From an uncultured Flavobacteriales bacterium (GTDB lineage: Bacteria > Bacteroidota > Bacteroidia > CAIKAF01): DNA of 40,762 nt. Below the pieces are notes generated by a model. The model made no database searches, was not told the DNA's origin, and saw nothing but the letters and a program-made list of their open reading frames with translations. The DNA lies in assembly GCA_903837495.1 (NCBI GenBank), contig CAILUT010000032.1, forward strand, positions 1 through 40,762, given 5' to 3'. Shown in pieces: positions 3,132 to 40,635 of the stretch. The translations under genes and the position numbers were made by a program. Positions within the stretch are counted from its first letter, which is position 1. Every line of letters begins with the position of its first letter.

Positions 3132-3285
3132 TTTTTTTAGGGCGGCAGCCGGGCTTTCAGCGCTTGTCCGCGGCTGCCGAAAGGCTGGCCCAGCGGGCTT
3201 GCGGTGGCTCCTAAAGTCGCCTCCGCGCCACGCGGGCCAGGCTTCGGCACCCTTGCGGGCAAGCTGCTTCAATCCCTGCCGCGGG
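3132..3285 (+). repeat. Structured intergenic repeat, copy 1 (plus orientation)
   Basis: Element begins with a T-tract (3132-3138) directly after the flippase stop codon and ends in CTGCCGCGGG. Four nested stems can be drawn: GCGGCAG 3142-3148 with CTGCCGC 3276-3282; GCTTGTCCGC 3162-3171 with GCGGGCAAGC 3255-3264; 3176-3191 with 3234-3248 (GCCGAAAGGCTGGCCC / GGGCCAGGCTTCGGC); and GCGGTGGC 3201-3208 with GCCTCCGC 3219-3226 around the loop TCCTAAAGTC. It is one of seven copies. A short open frame through it is a by-product of the repeat. Confidence 0.9.
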
Positions 3286-7902: not shown

Positions 7903-9018
7903 ATGGGCCTGTACCTCCACATTCCCTTTTGCCGAAAGGCCTGCCATTTCTGCGATTTTCATTTTACGGTGAATCTGAAAGGCATCGACGCCCTGCTGCT
8001 GGCCCTGCAGCAAGAAGCCGATCAGGCTTCGGCCGATTGGAAGCAAGGCAGCTTTGACTCTGTGTATTTTGGCGGTGGAACCCCCGGATTGCTCGGCCCC
8101 CAACGCCTTGGGCCTCTGCTTGAACACATGCACCGCTGTTTTACCCTGAACCCCGATGCCGAAATTACCCTGGAAACCAACCCCGACGACCTGCTGGAAT
8201 TCGGCACCGAAGGCTGGAAGGCTCTGGGAATAAACCGACTAAGCCTGGGCGTTCAAACCCTGAATCCACAAGTTCTGGCGAACATGAACCGCGCACATAC
8301 GGCCGACCAAGCCCGGCGGGCATTAGACCTGATTGAAGCTTCGGGCATTCCCAAGGTTTCGGTCGATTTGATGTTTGGCATGCCTGGGCAAGGAACCCAG
8401 GAATTGATTCAAAACGCCGAAGAACTCGCCGCACGCAACATCCAGCACGTTTCCATTTACGGCTTGACCGTAGAAAAAGGAACCGCCTTAGAACGCATGG
8501 TGCGCCTGAAGCAGGTCGAACTGCCCGAAGAAGACGAGGTGGCCGAGCAGTATTTGGCCCTGAACCAAGCGCTGTCAAAGGCCGGGTTTGAGCATTACGA
8601 AGTGTCCAATTACGCCCGGAATGGGCAGCGTTCCCTCCACAATTCGGCCTATTGGTCGGGCGAAGATTACCTGGGCCTGGGTCCCTCGGCCCACAGCCTA
8701 AAAGGCGATTTGCGCTGGTTCAACCGCTCCTCAAATGCGGCTTACGTTCAGGCGATGAACGGGCAAGGCGGCATCCGCGAACCCGAAGAATTGAATGCAG
8801 ACCAGAAAATCAACGAATGGTTGTTAACCCGCATGCGCACCGTAGAAGGACTCGGCGCGGCGGAAGCCCTGCAGCGCGTGGGAGCCAGACAATGGTCTGA
8901 ATGGCTGGAATTGAAACAAAAATTTCCAGACAATTGGTTCCAAGCCGATCGGCCTTTGGCCTTTTCGCCCCAAGGCTGGCTGATGATGGATGGGTTTTTG
9001 AGGGAGGCGGTGCTGTAA
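7903..9018 (+). CDS. hemW: HemW radical SAM heme chaperone (HemN-like)
   Basis: 371-residue radical SAM protein. The iron-sulfur motif is close to the N-terminus: IPFCRKACHFCDF, with Cys10, Cys14 and Cys17 in CxxxCxxC spacing. It is followed by the SAM-binding VYFGGGTPGLL. EITLETNPDD and LSLGVQTLNPQVLANMNRAH are conserved in the HemN/HemW group. It lacks the extra N-terminal region and fourth cysteine of true coproporphyrinogen dehydrogenases, and the length of about 370-380 residues fits HemW, a heme-trafficking protein. It is often misannotated as coproporphyrinogen III oxidase. The ATG start overlaps nothing and follows the lipocalin by 6 nt. Confidence 0.88.
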   Translation: MGLYLHIPFCRKACHFCDFHFTVNLKGIDALLLALQQEADQASADWKQGSFDSVYFGGGTPGLLGPQRLGPLLEHMHRCFTLNPDAEITLETNPDDLLEFGTEGWKALGINRLSLGVQTLNPQVLANMNRAHTADQARRALDLIEASGIPKVSVDLMFGMPGQGTQELIQNAEELAARNIQHVSIYGLTVEKGTALERMVRLKQVELPEEDEVAEQYLALNQALSKAGFEHYEVSNYARNGQRSLHNSAYWSGEDYLGLGPSAHSLKGDLRWFNRSSNAAYVQAMNGQGGIREPEELNADQKINEWLLTRMRTVEGLGAAEALQRVGARQWSEWLELKQKFPDNWFQADRPLAFSPQGWLMMDGFLREAVL

Positions 9019-9167
9019 AGGCTTTTCCCAATTAAATTGTGCGTATTGGTATAGGTGCGAGTGCGGAACATTTAGCCACGAATGCGCGAATGATTCTGGT
9101 AAAATTGTGTGCGTGGGTGGTAGGTGCGAGTGCCGAAAATCCGCCTAATCGTAGCTAAACACCATCA

Positions 9168-9250
9168 TTAGCATCAAGCCGTCCAGCCCTGAAGGGGCGA
9201 AATACCCTAGCACAGGGTGCAGCCCTGTGTTTTCGTTCGTCCGTCCGCGC
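9168..9250 (+). repeat. Double-hairpin repeat, copy A
   Basis: Contains CCCTGAAGGGG (9187-9197, small hairpin) and CACAGGGTGCAGCCCTGTG (9211-9229, 7-bp stem), followed by CGTTCGTCCGTCCGCGCA. It is nearly identical to 9397-9480. From memory, similar CCTGAAGGGGC...AGCACAGGG words occur as dispersed repeats in many environmental genomes; I cannot check that here. Confidence 0.8.
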
Positions 9251-9390
9251 ACCTGCGCATTCGTCCGTCCGCGCATTCGCGCATTCGTCCGTTCGCGCAT
9301 TCGTGCATTCGTTCGTTTGTGCATTCGTTTGTTCGCTCGTGCATTCGTTCGTTCGTTCATCCGGGCATTCGTGCATTCGTGGCTAAGTTA
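9230..9390 (+). repeat. Low-complexity tract of degenerate GCATTCGT / CGTTCGTC words
   Basis: About 160 nt almost entirely composed of short words such as CATTCG, CGTTCGT, GTCCGTCCGCG and GTGCATTCGT in irregular order, lying between the two double-hairpin copies. Spacing is not regular enough for a CRISPR and there are no unique spacers. Confidence 0.75.
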
Positions 9391-9396
9391 TCCGCA

Positions 9397-9480
9397 TTAG
9401 CATAAAGCCGTCTACCCCTGAAGGGGCCAAATACCCTAGCACAGGGTGTAGCCCTGTTTTTTCGTTCGTCCGTCCGCGCA
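9397..9480 (+). repeat. Double-hairpin repeat, copy B
   Basis: Second copy: CCCTGAAGGGG at 9416-9426 and CACAGGGTGTAGCCCTGTT from 9440, where one closing pair of the larger hairpin is lost. It is followed by the same TTCGTTCGTCCGTCCGCGCA tail as copy A and preceded by the same 'ttagcat.aagccgtc' lead-in. Confidence 0.8.
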
Positions 9481-9693
9481 TCCGTCCGTTCGTCCACCCC
9501 CTCCCGCCCCCGCCCCGCGTCCAAACCACCCGCAGTATCCCTGAAACCGCTCATACAAAGCCCCACCCCAATTCCAATTCCCCCCCACCCCCGCCTTAAC
9601 CTTGTTTAACATCCTATCTTTACACCAAACAACCCAAGTCTGCGTTAAGGGTGATGTTGGTTACCAAAGGCTAAATTATCCGGCGGAGCTTGT

Positions 9694-9720: not shown

Positions 9721-11889
9721 ATGAAATTCATTACTGCCGTTTTGGCTTGGCTAGGTTTGCTGTTAATGCCCCTGCAAGCACAACAAGAGAACATCAATTG
9801 GGCCTTGTCGGTGCAACCCAACGGAAAGGGAAACTATACCCTGATCATGAAGGCAAAAGTGGAAATGGGCTGGCATTTGTATTCCCAAACCAATCCCCCC
9901 AACAAAACCGTTTTTCAGGTTAGCCTGGGCAACCAAAAGCCCAGCGACATGCTGTTCTCAGAGCCCAAACCCAAAAAGGTGAACGACGAATACCTGGGAC
10001 CCACCGCTTTTTTTGAAGAACATGCGGTAACCTTTAAAAAAGACCTGGATTTGTGCGCCCTGCCCCCCAACTCCAAAATCCAGGTTTCGGTGATGGGGCA
10101 AATCTGCACCGAAGCCGACGGCATGTGCTTGCCCTTCGACAAAAGCTATTCCATCTCATTTAGCCCCGACGCCCAGGTTTGCCAAGGCGGAACCGCCGCA
10201 GCCATTCCCAATCCGGCAGAACCCCAGGAACTGGATTTTGATGCAGACGGGGTGGTCGATAGCCTTGATTTATGCCAAGACAAACCCGGTCCCGCCGAAA
10301 ACATGGGCTGCCCCGATTCCGACGGCGACGGAGTCCACGACGGCAAAGACCTTTGTTCGGGCGTTGCTTCTGACCGCGCCGACGGCTGCCCAGAGGGCGG
10401 AACCGGCAAAGCAGTCTGGGGCTCGGGCAACGACCCCGAACGCTTAACCGATGCAGTGCGTGCCCGCGTGCGCGAAGACGGCGGCTGCACCGGTACTGAA
10501 AGCGAAAGTCGCACCCCTTGGGGCATCTTTATTGCTGGGTTCATCGGCGGACTCCTTGCCCTGCTGACTCCTTGCGTGTTCCCCATGGTTCCCATGACCG
10601 TGGCTTTCTTCACCAAACAAAGCTCCTCCCGCGCCAAAGGCATCGCCAACGCCATCACCTATGCGGTATCCATCATCGTTATTTACACCGCTTTGGGATT
10701 CGCCATCACCAAAATATTCGGCTCAGACGCCCTGAACGCCATGGCCACCAGCGCCTTTTGGAATCTGCTCTTCTTCTTCATTTTCGTGATTTTCGCCATT
10801 TCCTTCTTGGGCGCCTTTGAAATTATGCTGCCCAACAAACTCTTGAACGCGGTCGATAAAAAAGCCAACAAAGGAGGATTGCTGGGCATTTTCTTTATGG
10901 CCTTCACCTTGTCGCTGGTCTCCTTCAGCTGCACCGGACCGCTGATTGGAACCTTGTTGGTCGAAGCGGCCAATACGGGCAACAACGTAGCTCCCCTCTT
11001 GGGCATGTTCGGATTTTCGGTGGCCTTGGCCCTGCCTTTCGCCTTGTTCGCCGCCTTCCCCGGCTGGTTGAACACCCTGCCCAAGGCCGGCGGCTGGATG
11101 ACCTCCGTAAAGGTAACCCTGGGCTTATTGGAGTTGGCCTTGGCCCTTAAATTCTTATCGACGGTGGACATGGCCTACCACTGGGACTTCTTGTTCCGCG
11201 AGCGCTTTTTGGCCATTTGGATTGCCATTTTTGGTATGCTCACCTTGTATTTGCTGGGCTTGTTCAAAACGGCCCACGACAGTTCGGGCGAGACCAAGCT
11301 ATCGGTTCCCCGCATCTTTTTGGCGGTATTTTCCTTGAGTTTCACCCTGTATTTGATTCCGGGATTAACCGGAGCTCCCTTGAAGCTGCTGGCAGGCTTG
11401 GCGCCTCCGCCCAACTACACCGAATCGGCCAAACCGCATGCTGGGGGCGGGCATTGCCCCATGGGCTTGGATTGCTTCAACGATCTGGCTCCGGCCATGG
11501 AAGCGGCAAAAGAGCGGCAAAAGCCCATATTTATTGACTTTACGGGCTATGGCTGCACCAATTGCCGGTTGATGGAAGAGAACGTATGGACCAAGGGCAA
11601 AAACATGGAATTGCTCCGCGAAAAATTCGTGGTGGTAAGCCTGTACTGCGACGACAAAAAGCAGATTCCGGCGCATTTGCAAAAAATCTCACCCGTCAGC
11701 GGCAAGCCCATGACCTCGGTAGGCAAGCTCTGGAGCGACTTTGAAATATACCATTTCAAGCAGCAAAGCCAGCCCCTGTACGTCATCATGGACGGCAACG
11801 GCAAATTGCTGAGCGAGACCTACGGCTACAATTCCGATGCAGAATTATTCCAGGAGTGGCTGGAATGCGGGCTAAAGCGGTTCAAATAG
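9721..11889 (+). CDS. dsbD: DsbD-type thiol:disulfide interchange protein with inserted TSP3-like segment
   Basis: 722 residues. It passes electrons from cytoplasmic thioredoxin across the inner membrane to reduce periplasmic disulfides. In order: signal peptide 1-20; DsbD-alpha/DsbC domain about 22-150 (WHLYSQTNPP, DLCALPP, MGQICTEADGMCLPFD); an Asp/Cys-rich insertion about 171-225 (DFDADGVVDSLDLC, DSDGDGVHDGKDLC) that reads as two thrombospondin-type-3 calcium-binding repeats; the transmembrane core from about 265, with TPCVFPMVP at about 282 and FSCTGP at about 400 holding the redox cysteines; and a C-terminal thioredoxin domain with FTGYGCTNC (Cys612, Cys615). The TSP3-like insertion between the alpha domain and the membrane core is unusual. 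ATG 9721 gives a clean signal peptide. Confidence 0.92.
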   Translation: MKFITAVLAWLGLLLMPLQAQQENINWALSVQPNGKGNYTLIMKAKVEMGWHLYSQTNPPNKTVFQVSLGNQKPSDMLFSEPKPKKVNDEYLGPTAFFEEHAVTFKKDLDLCALPPNSKIQVSVMGQICTEADGMCLPFDKSYSISFSPDAQVCQGGTAAAIPNPAEPQELDFDADGVVDSLDLCQDKPGPAENMGCPDSDGDGVHDGKDLCSGVASDRADGCPEGGTGKAVWGSGNDPERLTDAVRARVREDGGCTGTESESRTPWGIFIAGFIGGLLALLTPCVFPMVPMTVAFFTKQSSSRAKGIANAITYAVSIIVIYTALGFAITKIFGSDALNAMATSAFWNLLFFFIFVIFAISFLGAFEIMLPNKLLNAVDKKANKGGLLGIFFMAFTLSLVSFSCTGPLIGTLLVEAANTGNNVAPLLGMFGFSVALALPFALFAAFPGWLNTLPKAGGWMTSVKVTLGLLELALALKFLSTVDMAYHWDFLFRERFLAIWIAIFGMLTLYLLGLFKTAHDSSGETKLSVPRIFLAVFSLSFTLYLIPGLTGAPLKLLAGLAPPPNYTESAKPHAGGGHCPMGLDCFNDLAPAMEAAKERQKPIFIDFTGYGCTNCRLMEENVWTKGKNMELLREKFVVVSLYCDDKKQIPAHLQKISPVSGKPMTSVGKLWSDFEIYHFKQQSQPLYVIMDGNGKLLSETYGYNSDAELFQEWLECGLKRFK

Positions 11890-11927: not shown

Positions 11928-12080
11928 TTTTAGTGGGGCGGCTGCGGGCTTTCACCGGTTGTCCGCGCCTGCCAACTGCGGCCCCAGCGGGCTTGCGTGG
12001 GCTCCTAAAGTCGCCTCCGCGCCTCGCGGGGCCGTAGCCGGCAGGCTTGCGGGCAACCCGGTTCAATCCCTGCCGCGGGC
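11928..12080 (+). repeat. Structured intergenic repeat, copy 3 (plus orientation)
   Basis: Begins at TTTT (11928-11931), 38 nt after the dsbD stop codon, and ends in TGCCGCGGGC. The third stem differs in sequence from other copies but still pairs (GCCTGCC...CGGCCCC with GGGGCCG...GGCAGGC). The second stem is CCGGTTGTCCGC with GCGGGCAACCCGG. Its 3' end lies about 40 nt before the dead integrase tail, so it may have inserted into or next to that gene. Confidence 0.88.
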
Positions 12081-12121: not shown

Positions 12122-12220
12122 GAATGCTTGCAGCCCAGGGGCAGCAAAACCTCCGAAATCTTCAGGCATGCAAACACCAAAACCATGCAGCAAATCCGGC
12201 CGCCCTTTGGCGAGGTGTGA
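12122..12220 (+). pseudogene. Relic C-terminus of a tyrosine recombinase (integrase)
   Basis: A 32-residue frame ending in TGA aligns without gaps to the last 32 residues of the integrase fragment at 38618-38878: GSKTSEIFRHANTKTMQQIR against SSKTTEIYTHLSTKNLQQIR, then PPFGEV against SPFDDL. The DNA aligns as well. The two catalytic positions visible here are destroyed: Gly-His is Gln-Pro and the nucleophile Tyr is Phe. A stop codon (12095-12097) and the structured repeat lie upstream, so nothing more of the gene can be followed. Sequence after the stop continues to match the other locus through the att-like site. Confidence 0.75.
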
Positions 12221-12230
12221 AAAAATCAAT

Positions 12231-12310
12231 ACTTTGGGTGGCGGGAATAAAACTTCGTCAATACATCCAAATCGGTGGATTGGGGAGGGGTTAGCGGGGA
12301 TAAATGAGTT
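12231..12310 (+). mobile_element. att-like palindromic recombination site A
   Basis: About 80 nt matching 38888-38970 closely: shared GCGGG, AATAAAACTTCG, ATACATCCAAATC, ATTGGGGA and ATAAATGAGTT. The centre folds as CCAAATC/GATTGG. The arm AACTTC pairs with GGGGTT only through wobbles, showing decay compared with copy B. Similarity to copy B ends beside the final GTT (12308-12310), the position at which integron integrases cut (G^TT). Here it is followed by ATATGCC rather than AGCGTTC. Confidence 0.65.
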
Positions 12311-12454
12311 ATATGCCATTATAAGATGAACAAATGATAAAAAACAGTATTACAATATGAATTAATCAAAATAAACAACTTGACATAAAAGAAGCGTAGA
12401 CTTTCGACTAGTTGAAAACTACTTATTATATGACACATGAATTAAACAAAAAAT

Positions 12455-12646
12455 ATGAAAACAGAAAATTTAATTTACGGACTTGGTTCCGCATCAGTAA
12501 TTGCAGGAGCTATAATGAAAATTTTACATTTATCTTACGGGAATCAAATATTTTTATTTAGTCTCATAGGCATGACAATTTTCCAGTCTTGGCATGTGAC
12601 AAAGTTGAAAAAAACAATTAAAGACCTAGAAAATAAAACACAATAG
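12455..12646 (+). CDS. Small two-helix membrane protein resembling the GldL N-terminus
   Basis: 63 residues. Two hydrophobic helices (about 6-25 and 31-47) are followed by a charged tail KLKKTIKDLENKTQ. The opening LIYGLGSASVIAGAIMKILH resembles the N-terminal helix pair of GldL, the inner-membrane motor component of the type IX secretion and gliding machinery. It lacks the long coiled-coil domain of GldL, so a motor function is not implied. The gene and its flanks (12311-12750) are much richer in A/T than neighbouring genes, consistent with arrival by transfer. It is the only gene between att-like site A and an IS3 remnant and may be the cargo of an old gene cassette. Confidence 0.55.
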   Translation: MKTENLIYGLGSASVIAGAIMKILHLSYGNQIFLFSLIGMTIFQSWHVTKLKKTIKDLENKTQ

Positions 12647-12750
12647 GCTGCAAACATAGAAATCGTTTAATTAATTATTCCGAAAAAATATTATTGTTAA
12701 GTCTTTAGTATGACCTTGAATTAATAATCAATTTAAACTTCATAACACTG

Positions 12751-12868
12751 TGTAGGCTTCCCCAAAAATTGGACAGTTCAAAACTAGAATTAATTTTGAC
12801 TGTCTATGAAAAAGAGCAAGTTTTCTCCAAACCAAATCGTAAAGATTCTCAAAGAATGGGAATCTGGT
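12751..12868 (+). mobile_element. Truncated IS3-family insertion sequence (left end and orfA start)
   Basis: TGTAGGCTTCCCC (12751) followed by AATTGGACAGTTC looks like an IS3-family left end. At 12806 an ATG opens MKKSKFSPNQIVKILKEWESG, the typical start of an IS3-family OrfA helix-turn-helix protein. Similarity fades near 12868, and 39 nt later the sequence is the 3' end of lipB. The rest of orfA, all of orfB and the right end are missing, so this is a remnant. The right boundary is approximate. Confidence 0.7.
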
Positions 12869-12906
12869 CCTCCCTTGAAACGGTTCCAATTGGATTACCC
12901 TTACCC

Positions 12907-18035: not shown

Positions 18036-18192
18036 CGCTTGCGGCAGGGATTGAACCGGGTTGCCCGCAAGAGTGCCGAAGCCTGGCCCGCTAGGTGCGG
18101 AGGCGACCTTGGGAGCCCCCGCAAACCAGCTGGGCCAGCCTTTCGGCAACCGCGGACAACCGGTGAAAGCCCGGCTGCCGCCCCCAAAAAAA
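18036..18192 (-). repeat. Structured intergenic repeat, copy 4 (minus orientation)
   Basis: Minus-strand copy between two convergent genes. It begins at the T-tract (complement of 18186-18192), 36 nt after the stop codon of the minus-strand membrane protein. The second stem is the GGTTG/CAACC version (ACCGGTTGTCCGC with GCGGGCAACCCGGT). The terminal stem is GCGGCAG with CTGCCGC. Confidence 0.9.
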
Positions 18193-22444: not shown

Positions 22445-22593
22445 TTTTTTGGGCGGCGGACGGGCTTTCGCCGGTTGTCCGCGGTTGCCGAAAGGCTGGC
22501 CCAGCTGGTTTGCGGTGGCTCCTAAAGTCGCCTCCGCACCTAGCGGGCCAGGCTTCGGCACCCTTGCGGGCAACCTGGCTCAATCCCTGCCGC
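22445..22593 (+). repeat. Structured intergenic repeat, copy 5 (plus orientation)
   Basis: Begins at TTTTTT (22445-22450) and ends in CCCTGCCGC. The second stem is GGTTGTCCGC with GCGGGCAACC, the third is GCCGAAAGGCTGGCCC with GGGCCAGGCTTCGGC. No intact gene lies directly upstream in its orientation; an orphan promoter does. Confidence 0.9.
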
Positions 22594-24790: not shown

Positions 24791-24944
24791 CCCGCGGGCG
24801 GGATTGAAGCAGCTACCCCGCAAGGGTGCCGAAGCCTGGCCCGCTAGGTGCGGAGGCGACTTTAGGAGCCCCCGCAAACCAGCTGGGCCAGCCTTTCGGT
24901 ACCCGCGGAGTAGCGCTGAAAGCCCGGAAACCCGCCCATAAAAA
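24791..24944 (-). repeat. Structured intergenic repeat, copy 6 (minus orientation)
   Basis: Begins immediately after the stop codon of the minus-strand secreted-protein gene (T-tract is the complement of 24941-24944) and extends toward the tRNA. This copy gives the best covariation. The terminal stem is GGGCGGG with CCCGCCC instead of GCGGCAG with CTGCCGC, and the second stem is GCTAC with GTAGC instead of GCTTG/CAAGC or GGTTG/CAACC. Confidence 0.9.
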
Positions 24945-38617: not shown

Positions 38618-38878
38618 TTGGCGACTCGTGGGCAAAAATACTGCGAACGCAGTTTGCAAGTGGTGTTAAAGCAAGCCCTGCAAAAGGTTGGCAACCCAAA
38701 ACAGGCTCGGCCGCATTGGTCGCGGCGCAGCTATGCTATCCGTCTATTTGGATCGGGAACAGACCTTAGGTACATTCAGGACCTGTTAGGGCATAGCAGC
38801 AGCAAAACCACCGAGATATACACCCATTTAAGTACCAAAAACCTGCAACAAATCCGTTCGCCCTTTGACGATTTGTAA
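38618..38878 (+). pseudogene. Tyrosine-recombinase (integrase) C-terminal fragment
   Basis: 86 residues representing only the catalytic C-terminal part. From about residue 5 it reads GQKYCERSLQVVLKQALQKVGN, then HWSRRSYAIRL (box II, His33 and Arg36 retained, the following His replaced by Arg), TDLRYIQDLLGHSSSKTTEIYTH (His59 and the nucleophile Tyr68 retained) and the tail IRSPFDDL. The N-terminal DNA-binding domain and box I are missing, and the 246 nt upstream (38372-38617) has no credible remainder, so the gene is a relic. The C-terminal tail recalls the SPLD-type tails of integron integrases. It points toward the att-like site and cassette 10 nt after its stop. Confidence 0.85.
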
Positions 38879-38887
38879 AATATCTAT

Positions 38888-38970
38888 ACTTTAGATAGCG
38901 GGAAATAAAACTTCGCCTATACATCCAAATCTGCGAATTGGGGAAGTTTTATAGCGCCTATAAATGAGTT
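38888..38970 (+). mobile_element. att-like palindromic recombination site B
   Basis: 83 nt beginning 9 nt after the integrase stop. Imperfect palindrome: AAAACTTC pairs with GAAGTTTT, and inside it CCAAATC pairs with GAATTGG around a small loop; outer arms are weaker. It ends ATAAATGAGTT. The last GTT (38968-38970) plus AGCG forms GTTAGCG, complementary to the CGCTAAC of the attC at the far end of the cassette. The whole site matches 12231-12310, and the two diverge next to the GTT. Confidence 0.7.
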
Positions 38971-39059
38971 AGCGTTCATTGGAAAAACAGAAACGACACA
39001 GAAAAACAGAAATAAAACGATAAATAAAAACGGGTATTCACAATTAAAAACAAAACAAC

Positions 39060-39548
39060 ATGACAAAAAACAAATCAAGACCCTTTGCAATGTTGCTGGC
39101 AGGACTGCTATGGGGTAGCTTGGCTCAAGCTCAAGAGTCTGCCAATTCCTCAGGTGGTAATGCCTCTGGAAGCGGTGGAACAGTTGCTTACAGTATTGGG
39201 CAGGTATTTTACACCTCCAATTCAGGAAGTAGTGGAACTGTTGACCAAGGCGTTCAACATGCTTACGAAATTTATTCTGTTGGTATTAATGAAACAAATC
39301 TAAACATTTCACTCACTGCTTTTCCAAATCCGACAACGGAAAATTTAACCTTGCAGATAAGTGACTTCATCAACGAGAAGTTATTCTATCAGCTTTATGA
39401 TTTGCAAGGTAAACTGTTAACCAGTGGTCAAGTAACAGCAAAGCAAACACAGATAAACACATCAAGTTTGCCCTCTGCAACTTACTTTATCAATGTTGTA
39501 AACCAAGAAAATATAAAAGTTCAATCATTTAAAATCATCAAAAACTAA
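39060..39548 (+). CDS. Secreted protein with type IX secretion C-terminal sorting domain
   Basis: 162 residues. Signal peptide (PFAMLLAGLLWGSLAQAQ) and a Gly/Ser-rich segment (SSGGNASGSGGTVAYSIGQVFYTSNSGSSGTVDQGVQHAYEI) that resembles the short repeats often placed before sorting domains. The T9SS type A C-terminal sorting domain follows, at about 83-162: LTAFPNPTTENLTLQIS, LYDLQGKLL, INTSSLPSATYFINVV and KIIKN. It is presumably exported and attached at the cell surface by T9SS. It is the first gene of the cassette. The second gene follows after 6 nt. Confidence 0.85.
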   Translation: MTKNKSRPFAMLLAGLLWGSLAQAQESANSSGGNASGSGGTVAYSIGQVFYTSNSGSSGTVDQGVQHAYEIYSVGINETNLNISLTAFPNPTTENLTLQISDFINEKLFYQLYDLQGKLLTSGQVTAKQTQINTSSLPSATYFINVVNQENIKVQSFKIIKN

Positions 39549-39554
39549 AAAATC

Positions 39555-40469
39555 ATGAAAAAAATAATTACAATCTGTGCAGCAATTTTAATTACTGCAA
39601 GTGTGTTTGCTCAAGCACCAAACAAAATGAGCTATCAAGCAGTAATTCGTAATACTTCAAACGCTCTAGTAACAAGCTCTGCTGTTGGTATGCAAATTAG
39701 TATTTTACAAGGTTCATCAACCGGAACTCCTGTATATGTAGAAACGCAAACACCAACTACAAATGCCAATGGGTTAGCAAGTATAGAAATTGGCGGTGGA
39801 ACAGTTGTGTCAGGTAACTTCGCTACTATTGACTGGGCAAACGGCCCTTATTTTGTAAAAACTGAAACTGACCCAACTGGTGGTACAAGCTATTCCATTA
39901 CAAGCACCAGCCAGTTGTTGAGTGTTCCTTATGCTTTGTATGCTGCAAATGCGGGCAACGCCAGTGGCAGTGGTAATTTTACCCACTACATAGGTGAAGC
40001 ATTTGGCGGTGGCGTAATTTTTCATTTATGGAAAGATGCACAAGGAGTAGAGCACGGTTTGATAGTAGATAAAACAGATTTGAGCACAAGCCAAATTTGG
40101 AGTAATGTTTCTACCCTAATTGGTGTTTCTGCACAGAGTAGTTGGGATGGCTTAGGTAATAGTAATGCTATTATTAGCCAAGTAGGCCATACCAATAGTG
40201 CCGCGGGACTTTGTATTAATTCAACAAATAATGGGCAGACTGATTGGTATTTACCGTCACAAAACGAACTAAGTATATTATGGAATAATTTATTAACTGT
40301 AAATAGGTCATTAATTATTAATAGTGGCTCTGAAGTAGGAAACTTTGGATATTGGTCATCTACTGAGGATTTATCTAATATGGTGGGTCGAACATATTTT
40401 GGTGCAGGATCAACTTACGGTAATAATAAAAACGATTTATTTCGAGTTAGAGCAATCAGAGCTTTCTAA
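39555..40469 (+). CDS. Secreted protein with Fib_succ_major/DUF1566-like C-terminal domain
   Basis: 304 residues. A signal peptide (MKKIITICAAILITASVFAQ) is followed by a beta-rich N-terminal region (MSYQAVIRNTSNALVTSSAVGMQISILQG..., conserved in many Bacteroidota surface proteins) up to about residue 130. The C-terminal part begins IGEAFGGGVIFHLW and has the hallmarks of the Fib_succ_major / DUF1566 (Lcl-like) fold: GQTDWYLPSQNELSILW, GYWSSTE and a final FRVRAIRAF. Probably exposed on the surface; ligand unknown. It lies directly before the attC. Codon use is A/T-rich compared with the chromosomal genes. Confidence 0.82.
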   Translation: MKKIITICAAILITASVFAQAPNKMSYQAVIRNTSNALVTSSAVGMQISILQGSSTGTPVYVETQTPTTNANGLASIEIGGGTVVSGNFATIDWANGPYFVKTETDPTGGTSYSITSTSQLLSVPYALYAANAGNASGSGNFTHYIGEAFGGGVIFHLWKDAQGVEHGLIVDKTDLSTSQIWSNVSTLIGVSAQSSWDGLGNSNAIISQVGHTNSAAGLCINSTNNGQTDWYLPSQNELSILWNNLLTVNRSLIINSGSEVGNFGYWSSTEDLSNMVGRTYFGAGSTYGNNKNDLFRVRAIRAF

Positions 40470-40495
40470 ATGAAAGTAATAAACCTCAAAAAAAA

Positions 40496-40635
40496 CCAAC
40501 GAAACGCTAACAGCAGCTAAAAGAAATTGGCTGCAATCTGTACCGCTGAAACATTTGTGGTAAAAGAAAAATTCTTCTCCGCAAAAGCATCTCGGTTAAA
40601 ACCCGCCAACTTCTTTTAGCCGCAAAACGTTAAGG
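40496..40635 (+). mobile_element. attC recombination site of the cassette
   Basis: R'' CGCTAAC (40505-40511) and R' GTTAAGG (40629-40635) bound a 131-nt site. The inner stem GCTAAAAGAAATTGGC (40516-40531) pairs with GCCAACTTCTTTTAGC (40605-40620) at 15 of 16 positions. The outer extension 40496-40504 is complementary to the cassette start. Size and single-strand hairpin with AAC/GTT ends fit known attC sites. The seven-base boxes do not fully match the RYYYAAC/GTTRRRY consensus; only AAC and GTT are strict. Confidence 0.75.

Follow-up and report, generated by a model that had tools for sequence, protein, structure and literature searches.

The window analysed here, the whole stretch of 40,762 nt from an uncultured Flavobacteriales bacterium, contains two places, 12122-12310 (copy A) and 38780-38970 (copy B), where the end of an integrase gene is followed by a similar palindromic site and then by unrelated DNA. 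We asked what kind of unit is exchanged beside these sites and which enzyme family is responsible. The sequences lead us to regard A and B as, very probably, attI-type platforms at which a chromosomal, integron-like system of Bacteroidia captures gene cassettes, using a recombinase that lacks I2, the additional domain of the integron integrase IntI.

Two platform sites in the window

Copies A and B share 32 gap-free codons of the integrase tail and the site behind it. They are 78% identical from about -169 to +1, counted from the last T of a GTT trinucleotide, and this similarity is far beyond chance within the genome (E = 9e-32). The initial annotation had reported this match, its coordinates and its stop at GTT exactly. 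It had also reported unlike A/T-rich genes after each copy, and we find the similarity gone within a few bases of GTT. The parts of both copies given below lie on the forward strand. In copy A, the integrase is reduced to a 3' remnant of 32 codons and a stop (12122..12220), in which the catalytic Gly-His is replaced by Gln-Pro and the Tyr by Phe, as both the sequence and the tail alignments confirm. The platform site follows at 12221..12310, with hairpin arms and a core in which GGGGATAAATGA immediately precedes GTT (12308-12310). The A/T-rich cargo (12311..12750, right end approximate) includes a 63-aa GldL_N-like ORF at 12455-12646. No attC was recognised in this cargo, which is probably truncated. 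The orthologous site in a sister species (G005:C6) holds a different ORF.

Copy B is no live counterpart of the dead copy A. Its integrase has decayed too: the ORF (38618..38878) encodes an 86-aa fragment with only the C-terminal catalytic part, so that the N-terminal half is missing, along with the first catalytic Arg. Its platform site occupies 38879..38970, and GCGCCTATAAATGA is followed by GTT at 38968-38970.

Two other features of the window were noted by the way. Behind the cargo of copy A, adjoining a lipB-like gene, 12752-12870 reads as a possible 5' remnant of an IS3-type transposase (MKKSKFSPNQIVKILKEWESG). An array of ~8-bp repeats spans 9145-9520, alongside a weak match to Rfam Acido-Lenti-1 (9185-9229; 38.2 against a cut-off of 37).

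Gene cassettes with attC-type ends

Judged by their boundaries, the units that move at GTT are gene cassettes with attC-type ends (40505-40635 in the window), a feature absent from the initial annotation. The cassette of copy B (38969..40629) begins with TTAGCGTTCATTGG after the G of GTT, and its final base is the G of the next GTT. It starts with GTTAGCGTT and ends with AAACGCTAAC, a long imperfect palindrome and AAAACGTT. Two ORFs lie between these ends. The first (39060..39548) codes for a secreted protein with a Por secretion C-terminal sorting domain (PF18962, E 8e-13), and the second (39555..40469) for an Lcl C-terminal domain protein (PF07603, E 1e-8). The attC-type site that closes the cassette (40505..40635) consists of the R'' box CGCTAAC, which complements the cassette start, the long imperfect palindrome, and GCCGCAAAACG followed by TTAAGG. 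A covariance model that we built from 12 attC-type sites (R1) scores it at 103.8 bits on the bottom strand, the site being one of the 12 training sequences. A second cassette starts at 40630 and is broken off by the contig end at 40762.

The same plan, with a GTTRNNN start, an attC-type hairpin end of ~130 nt and a left box complementary to the cassette's own start, recurs at the platforms C5 and C63 of this assembly, at G005:C29, and in G034, G025 (at least four in a row), G004 and G010. A gap-tolerant finder was needed to locate the sites; a simple ungapped one missed most of them. Cassettes are mostly 0.3-5 kb long with one to a few genes; in those read, we saw no recombinase belonging to the cassette itself. 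They form tandem arrays, for example more than 10 attC sites over ~34 kb in G043:C6. By reading, the C5 cassette (L012) seems to carry a McrB/McrC-type restriction pair, and those at L034, L021 and L041 seem to contain toxin-antitoxin-like parts (ParD-like, MNT/HEPN-like), as in known integrons.

An excised circular integron cassette carries a single attC. Once the cassette is integrated, its opening bases are therefore bound to match the R'' box at the opposite end of the same cassette. In 46 cassettes taken consecutively at named loci, the start agreed with the cassette's own R'' at 5.04 of 6 variable bases. Agreement was 2.38 of 6 after shuffling (sd 0.20; maximum 3.02 in 2000 shuffles) and 2.83 between the two boxes inside one site.

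The attC-type sites are conserved as folded structures. In the 12-site alignment, 93.8% of the cells in 24 pairs are paired, compared with 36-49% in slid controls. Double changes occur in 16 of 20 inner pairs, with 63 double-change cells against 21 in shuffled alignments (reached in 0 of 500). Two stem positions are nearly always G.U on the modelled (bottom) strand, which corresponds to A.C on the top strand. Across 95 sites we counted 278 G.U and 50 A.C cells on the bottom strand, with the two positions showing the wobble in 94 and 90 of the 95, in an alignment fitted to a bottom-strand model that itself favours pairs. Predicted DNA folding energies clearly favoured the bottom strand in 9 of 14 attC sites and did not do so clearly in the other 5.

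R1 finds 10 sites in the genome to which the window belongs. Of 60 relatives, 48 carry such sites, with a maximum of 44 in one genome, and of 295 Bacteroidia genomes 202 do, about two thirds (E up to 1e-6). Scanning named genomes with an integrase alignment gave 80 loci, including representatives of Flavobacterium, Algoriphagus, Polaribacter, Winogradskyella, Algibacter and Pontibacter. Sites and recombinase genes are tightly linked: 93 of the 95 bottom-strand attC matches at named loci are found on the downstream side of a tyrosine recombinase gene and share its orientation. The remaining 4 of 99 matches are reverse reads of strong palindromes. A platform signature, a site ending in GTT, occurs within 200 nt after 38 of 55 integrases, whereas 4.7% would be expected by chance.

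Side observations at attC sites include a ~200-nt sequence (GACTGTCTAATAAC...ATGCGCATGTCGATGCCGATAATGA) that lies right after the first attC in both G000:C63 and G005:C6 (L067, L053), the two copies being 89% identical. It resembles an IS end and may mark an attC-targeting element.

The platform integrase lacks I2

We compared the platform integrases with IntI and Xer proteins. The integron integrase profile TIGR02249 matched in two pieces, ~2-180 and ~238-315, and the IntI-specific stretch between them is missing. In an alignment with IntI1, a 43-residue stretch is absent from the platform integrases and from Xer proteins alike, and an alignment with IntI4 likewise lacks the I2 insert in the platform integrases. 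The catalytic residues are conserved. The C-terminal motif SPxDxL is common to platform integrases and IntI1 and is not found in Xer. The predicted structure is nearest to IntI4 (2a3v) and XerA, and among NCBIfam families the best match is 'site-specific tyrosine recombinase/integron integrase'. XerA, XerC and XerD (NF040815, 5hxy, 4a8e, 1a0p) have a similar catalytic domain and also lack the I2 insert; the platform integrases differ from them in their IntI-like C-terminus (SPFDDL), an N-terminal HARP-like domain, and the neighbouring att sites and cassettes.

The N-terminal domain comprises ~75 aa and is predicted with a pLDDT of 90. Pfam HARP (PF07443) matches 4 of 29 integrases (best E 8e-6), and a profile of the domain gives the HARP domain of SMARCAL1 (4o66) as its first hit (E 8e-4). 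Foldseek also places this chain on top (E 0.03). VIA Z scores were 4.2 for HARP and 6.5 for archaeal XPB N-terminal domains, and the latter may reflect only a common arrangement. The domain is present in most recovered integrases, including G005:C29, and absent from XerC and IntI1. HARP domains of SMARCAL1 recognise structured DNA. From this we hypothesise that the HARP-like domain helps to read folded attC sites, and in the absence of I2 it may take over folded-DNA recognition. The domain may not be essential, since the relatives L021 and L026 seem to be without it.

A canonical integron, with IntI and attC, that annotation merely missed would account for much of what we observe. The attC-type sites have R'' and R' core boxes and an imperfect palindrome kept in structure more than in sequence; R'' complements the start of its own cassette; an attI-type site lies beside the tyrosine recombinase gene; insertion appears to fall between the G and TT of GTT; and the cassettes form one-orientation tandem arrays. 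All of this is shared with chromosomal (sedentary) integrons, as are the SPxDxL motif of IntI1 and the structural proximity to IntI4. An asymmetry towards the bottom strand may be a further shared trait: the fixed wobbles favour that strand, and folding energies do so clearly in 9 of 14 sites. Against this explanation, I2 is absent from the proteins aligned, and the TIGR02249 cut-off was reached in none of 60 genomes, though 48 of the 60 have attC-type sites. In a small control, R1 had no match in 50 kb of E. coli K-12 or in the single class 1 integron region tried. We consider an overlooked canonical integron highly unlikely, and with none of the 60 genomes above the cut-off we rejected canonical IntI as the actual enzyme.

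The I2-less capture system that we favour differs from integrons in further respects: the integrase carries the N-terminal HARP-like domain, its gene is co-directional with the cassettes, and each genome has several solo platform sites. Chromosomal integrons of the spirochaete Treponema also have intI reversed relative to typical integrons (PMC3607928; PMC9668308), but their IntI has the additional domain according to the literature. An earlier publication reports that IntI needs the I2 helix to capture cassettes and that no other protein has this helix (PMC7790495), so a capture enzyme without I2 runs against the accepted rule. IntegronFinder-type surveys demand the additional domain (method: PMC9668308), and one integron survey recorded for Bacteroidetes a single complete integron, that of Salinibacter, and otherwise nothing but In0 elements (PMC9024848). 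Because such surveys define the integrase by the extra domain, almost no integrons have been reported in Bacteroidetes. One classification of tyrosine recombinases notes incomplete conservation of the insertion within its integron-like subgroup (PMC8138268), so insertion-less proteins have already been seen. We found no description of I2-less or Bacteroidia integron arrays in the open-access papers that we searched. By its sequence logic the system acts like an integron, yet it falls outside the IntI definition; as the defining additional domain is absent, we do not file it as an IntI integron. A cassette system without I2 makes the origin of integron recombination directly testable.

Platform copies and exchange of cargo at GTT

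The initial annotation had proposed two landing sites of one family and a repeated integrase/att module. The family and the repetition stand, and the number rises: this assembly has seven copies (C32 twice, C5, C22, C27, C65 and C63), with further ones in sister species. Twenty pairs among the seven can be aligned. Counted from the last T of GTT, the similarity breaks off between +1 and +8 in 19 of these pairs and at +21 in the remaining pair.

These copies could have arisen by segmental duplication of an integrase-containing island, with the downstream genes diverging later. Some flanks do point to duplication: copies B and C5 have ~500 bp in common, including sequence upstream of an identically 5'-truncated integrase, and A and C22 both follow one GC-rich intergenic repeat. 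Similarity continuing past GTT in related genomes had been named as the sign of such a duplication, and we looked for it in sister species. Copy A and G005:C6 are 93.4% identical over 2.2 kb and diverge from +11 after GTT. G003:C119 and G002:C18 are 97.8% identical over 3.0 kb, and G000:C22 (this assembly) and G005:C14 are 84.6% identical over 5.8 kb; both pairs diverge at +1, in each case over a short downstream stretch before the contig ends. Since orthologous sites stop at GTT with other cargo, duplication is ruled out as the origin of the cargo. In addition, the attC ends of the downstream units match their own starts. We conclude that segmental duplication is even less likely than a missed canonical integron, although the shared flanks indicate that some form of duplication did affect the platform modules. 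The orthologue comparison instead supports insertion at GTT, and the searches of this genome and its relatives bear out the earlier suggestion of a general insertion platform with unrelated A/T-rich genes behind it.

The least probable account, that these are attB sites of ordinary integrative elements or phages inserting beside the integrase tail, draws on the recombinase's place in the phage-integrase superfamily and on tail-plus-site repeats typical of attachment sites, but it is opposed by the small units, with no recombinase of their own in those read, by their tandem arrangement with a conserved hairpin end on each, and by best-covered phage matches of the integrase that are at most 32% identical.

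The capture system that we propose would consist of a tyrosine recombinase gene followed by a co-oriented palindromic site of ~60-90 nt that ends in GTT. Circular cassettes, each with one ~130-nt attC-type site, would be inserted at the platform GTT and excised again. As in integrons, the recombinase probably recognises attC as a bottom-strand hairpin; it would belong to a XerA/IntI-like group without the IntI additional domain. The sites and cassette boundaries, the match of R'' to its own cassette, the covariation, the orientation, the missing I2 and the unlike cargo at orthologous platforms are read from the sequences. From these we infer the circular intermediate and the single-strand mechanism, together with the role of the HARP-like domain and the action in trans discussed below.

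Contig ends fall less than 2 kb downstream of 13 of 17 platforms and less than 2 kb upstream of none of the 17, which fits strain-variable or repetitive cargo. At G005:C37 (L051, reverse complement 2681-2896) two platforms stand in tandem: a second integrase tail with its site begins directly behind the first GTT, an arrangement that attI x attI recombination may have produced. The GC-rich intergenic repeats, ~150 nt long and in both orientations, lie in the window at 3134-3282, 11928-12076, 18041-18191, 22445-22593 and 24794-24944, with relatives elsewhere. Copy A has such a repeat immediately upstream, as do the C22, G005:C6, C14 and C37 platforms.

Platform sites outlive their integrase genes

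Among PF00589 genes in this assembly, those found intact are all XerC-like or XerD-like, and no intact platform integrase was found there; current activity in this genome is thus a matter of deduction. G005 has an intact platform integrase (G005:C29). Across 17 copies from four species, mean pairwise identity is 82% in the last 66 columns before GTT, 64% in the next 64 upstream and 55% in the next 65. Copies without a recognisable integrase tail are 77% identical to the intact G005 copy in the site and 56% and 47% in the upstream stretches. Platform sites therefore outlive the integrase gene, a pattern that fits use in trans. Because the integrases have decayed while the sites are kept and the cargo varies between species, these platforms are probably served in trans.

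Resistance genes of the tet(X) family

The cargo of this system appears to include members of the tet(X) family, which confer tigecycline resistance. Publications have noted xerD adjoining tet(X), described it as a recombinase of unknown relevance and asked about its importance (PMC7473080; PMC7494873). Searching plasmids with the platform integrase brought up this gene, xerD/tnpF, in Acinetobacter, where it ends 172 nt before the GTT of the tet(X3) unit and is a 5'-truncated relative of the platform integrase. On the Empedobacter brevis plasmid pSE1-3-14kb, the tet(X2) unit begins with GTTATGTGCC and ends with GGCACATAAC and an attC-type site (81.8 bits). By these ends, the Empedobacter tet(X2) unit is an intact cassette of this system. 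The tet(X3) and tet(X2) units have 115 identical bases from GTT on, compared with 22% identity over the 60 nt upstream and no base in common immediately upstream. The Acinetobacter arrangement xerD-tet(X3)-res-orf1-ISVsa3 (PMC7494873) resembles a platform in that a truncated gene of the integrase group is followed directly by a tet(X) unit bounded by GTT, and differs in that the attC is cut on the ISVsa3 side. In the tet(X4) unit of an E. coli plasmid, a platform-like site precedes the start, and by reading the unit is cut inside R'' on the ISVsa3 side.

We lean, by a little, towards a wider reading of these data. A recombinase with a fused HARP-like domain would capture folded single-strand cassettes independently of I2 and drive integron-type arrays throughout Bacteroidia, its dispersed platforms would be served in trans, and the system would be the source of the cassettes from which ISVsa3 lifted tet(X). 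An intact tet(X2) cassette bears on whether the xerD beside tet(X) matters (PMC7473080), and it touches the mobile resistome.

The tet(X2), tet(X3) and tet(X4) units can be seen, with their GTT starts and R''/attC-type ends, in NZ_CP104735.1 (L161/L163), NZ_CP043637.1 (L164) and NZ_MT197111.1 (L166). Another plasmid, NZ_CP041688.1 from Chryseobacterium (L160), carries a palindrome-rich segment of ~180 nt (GTTGGGAAAAATCGCCC...) twice, at ~8918-9095 and 11011-11188. One copy lies directly after a platform GTT and the other after an attC, as if the segment were a gene-free cassette or a site-targeting element.
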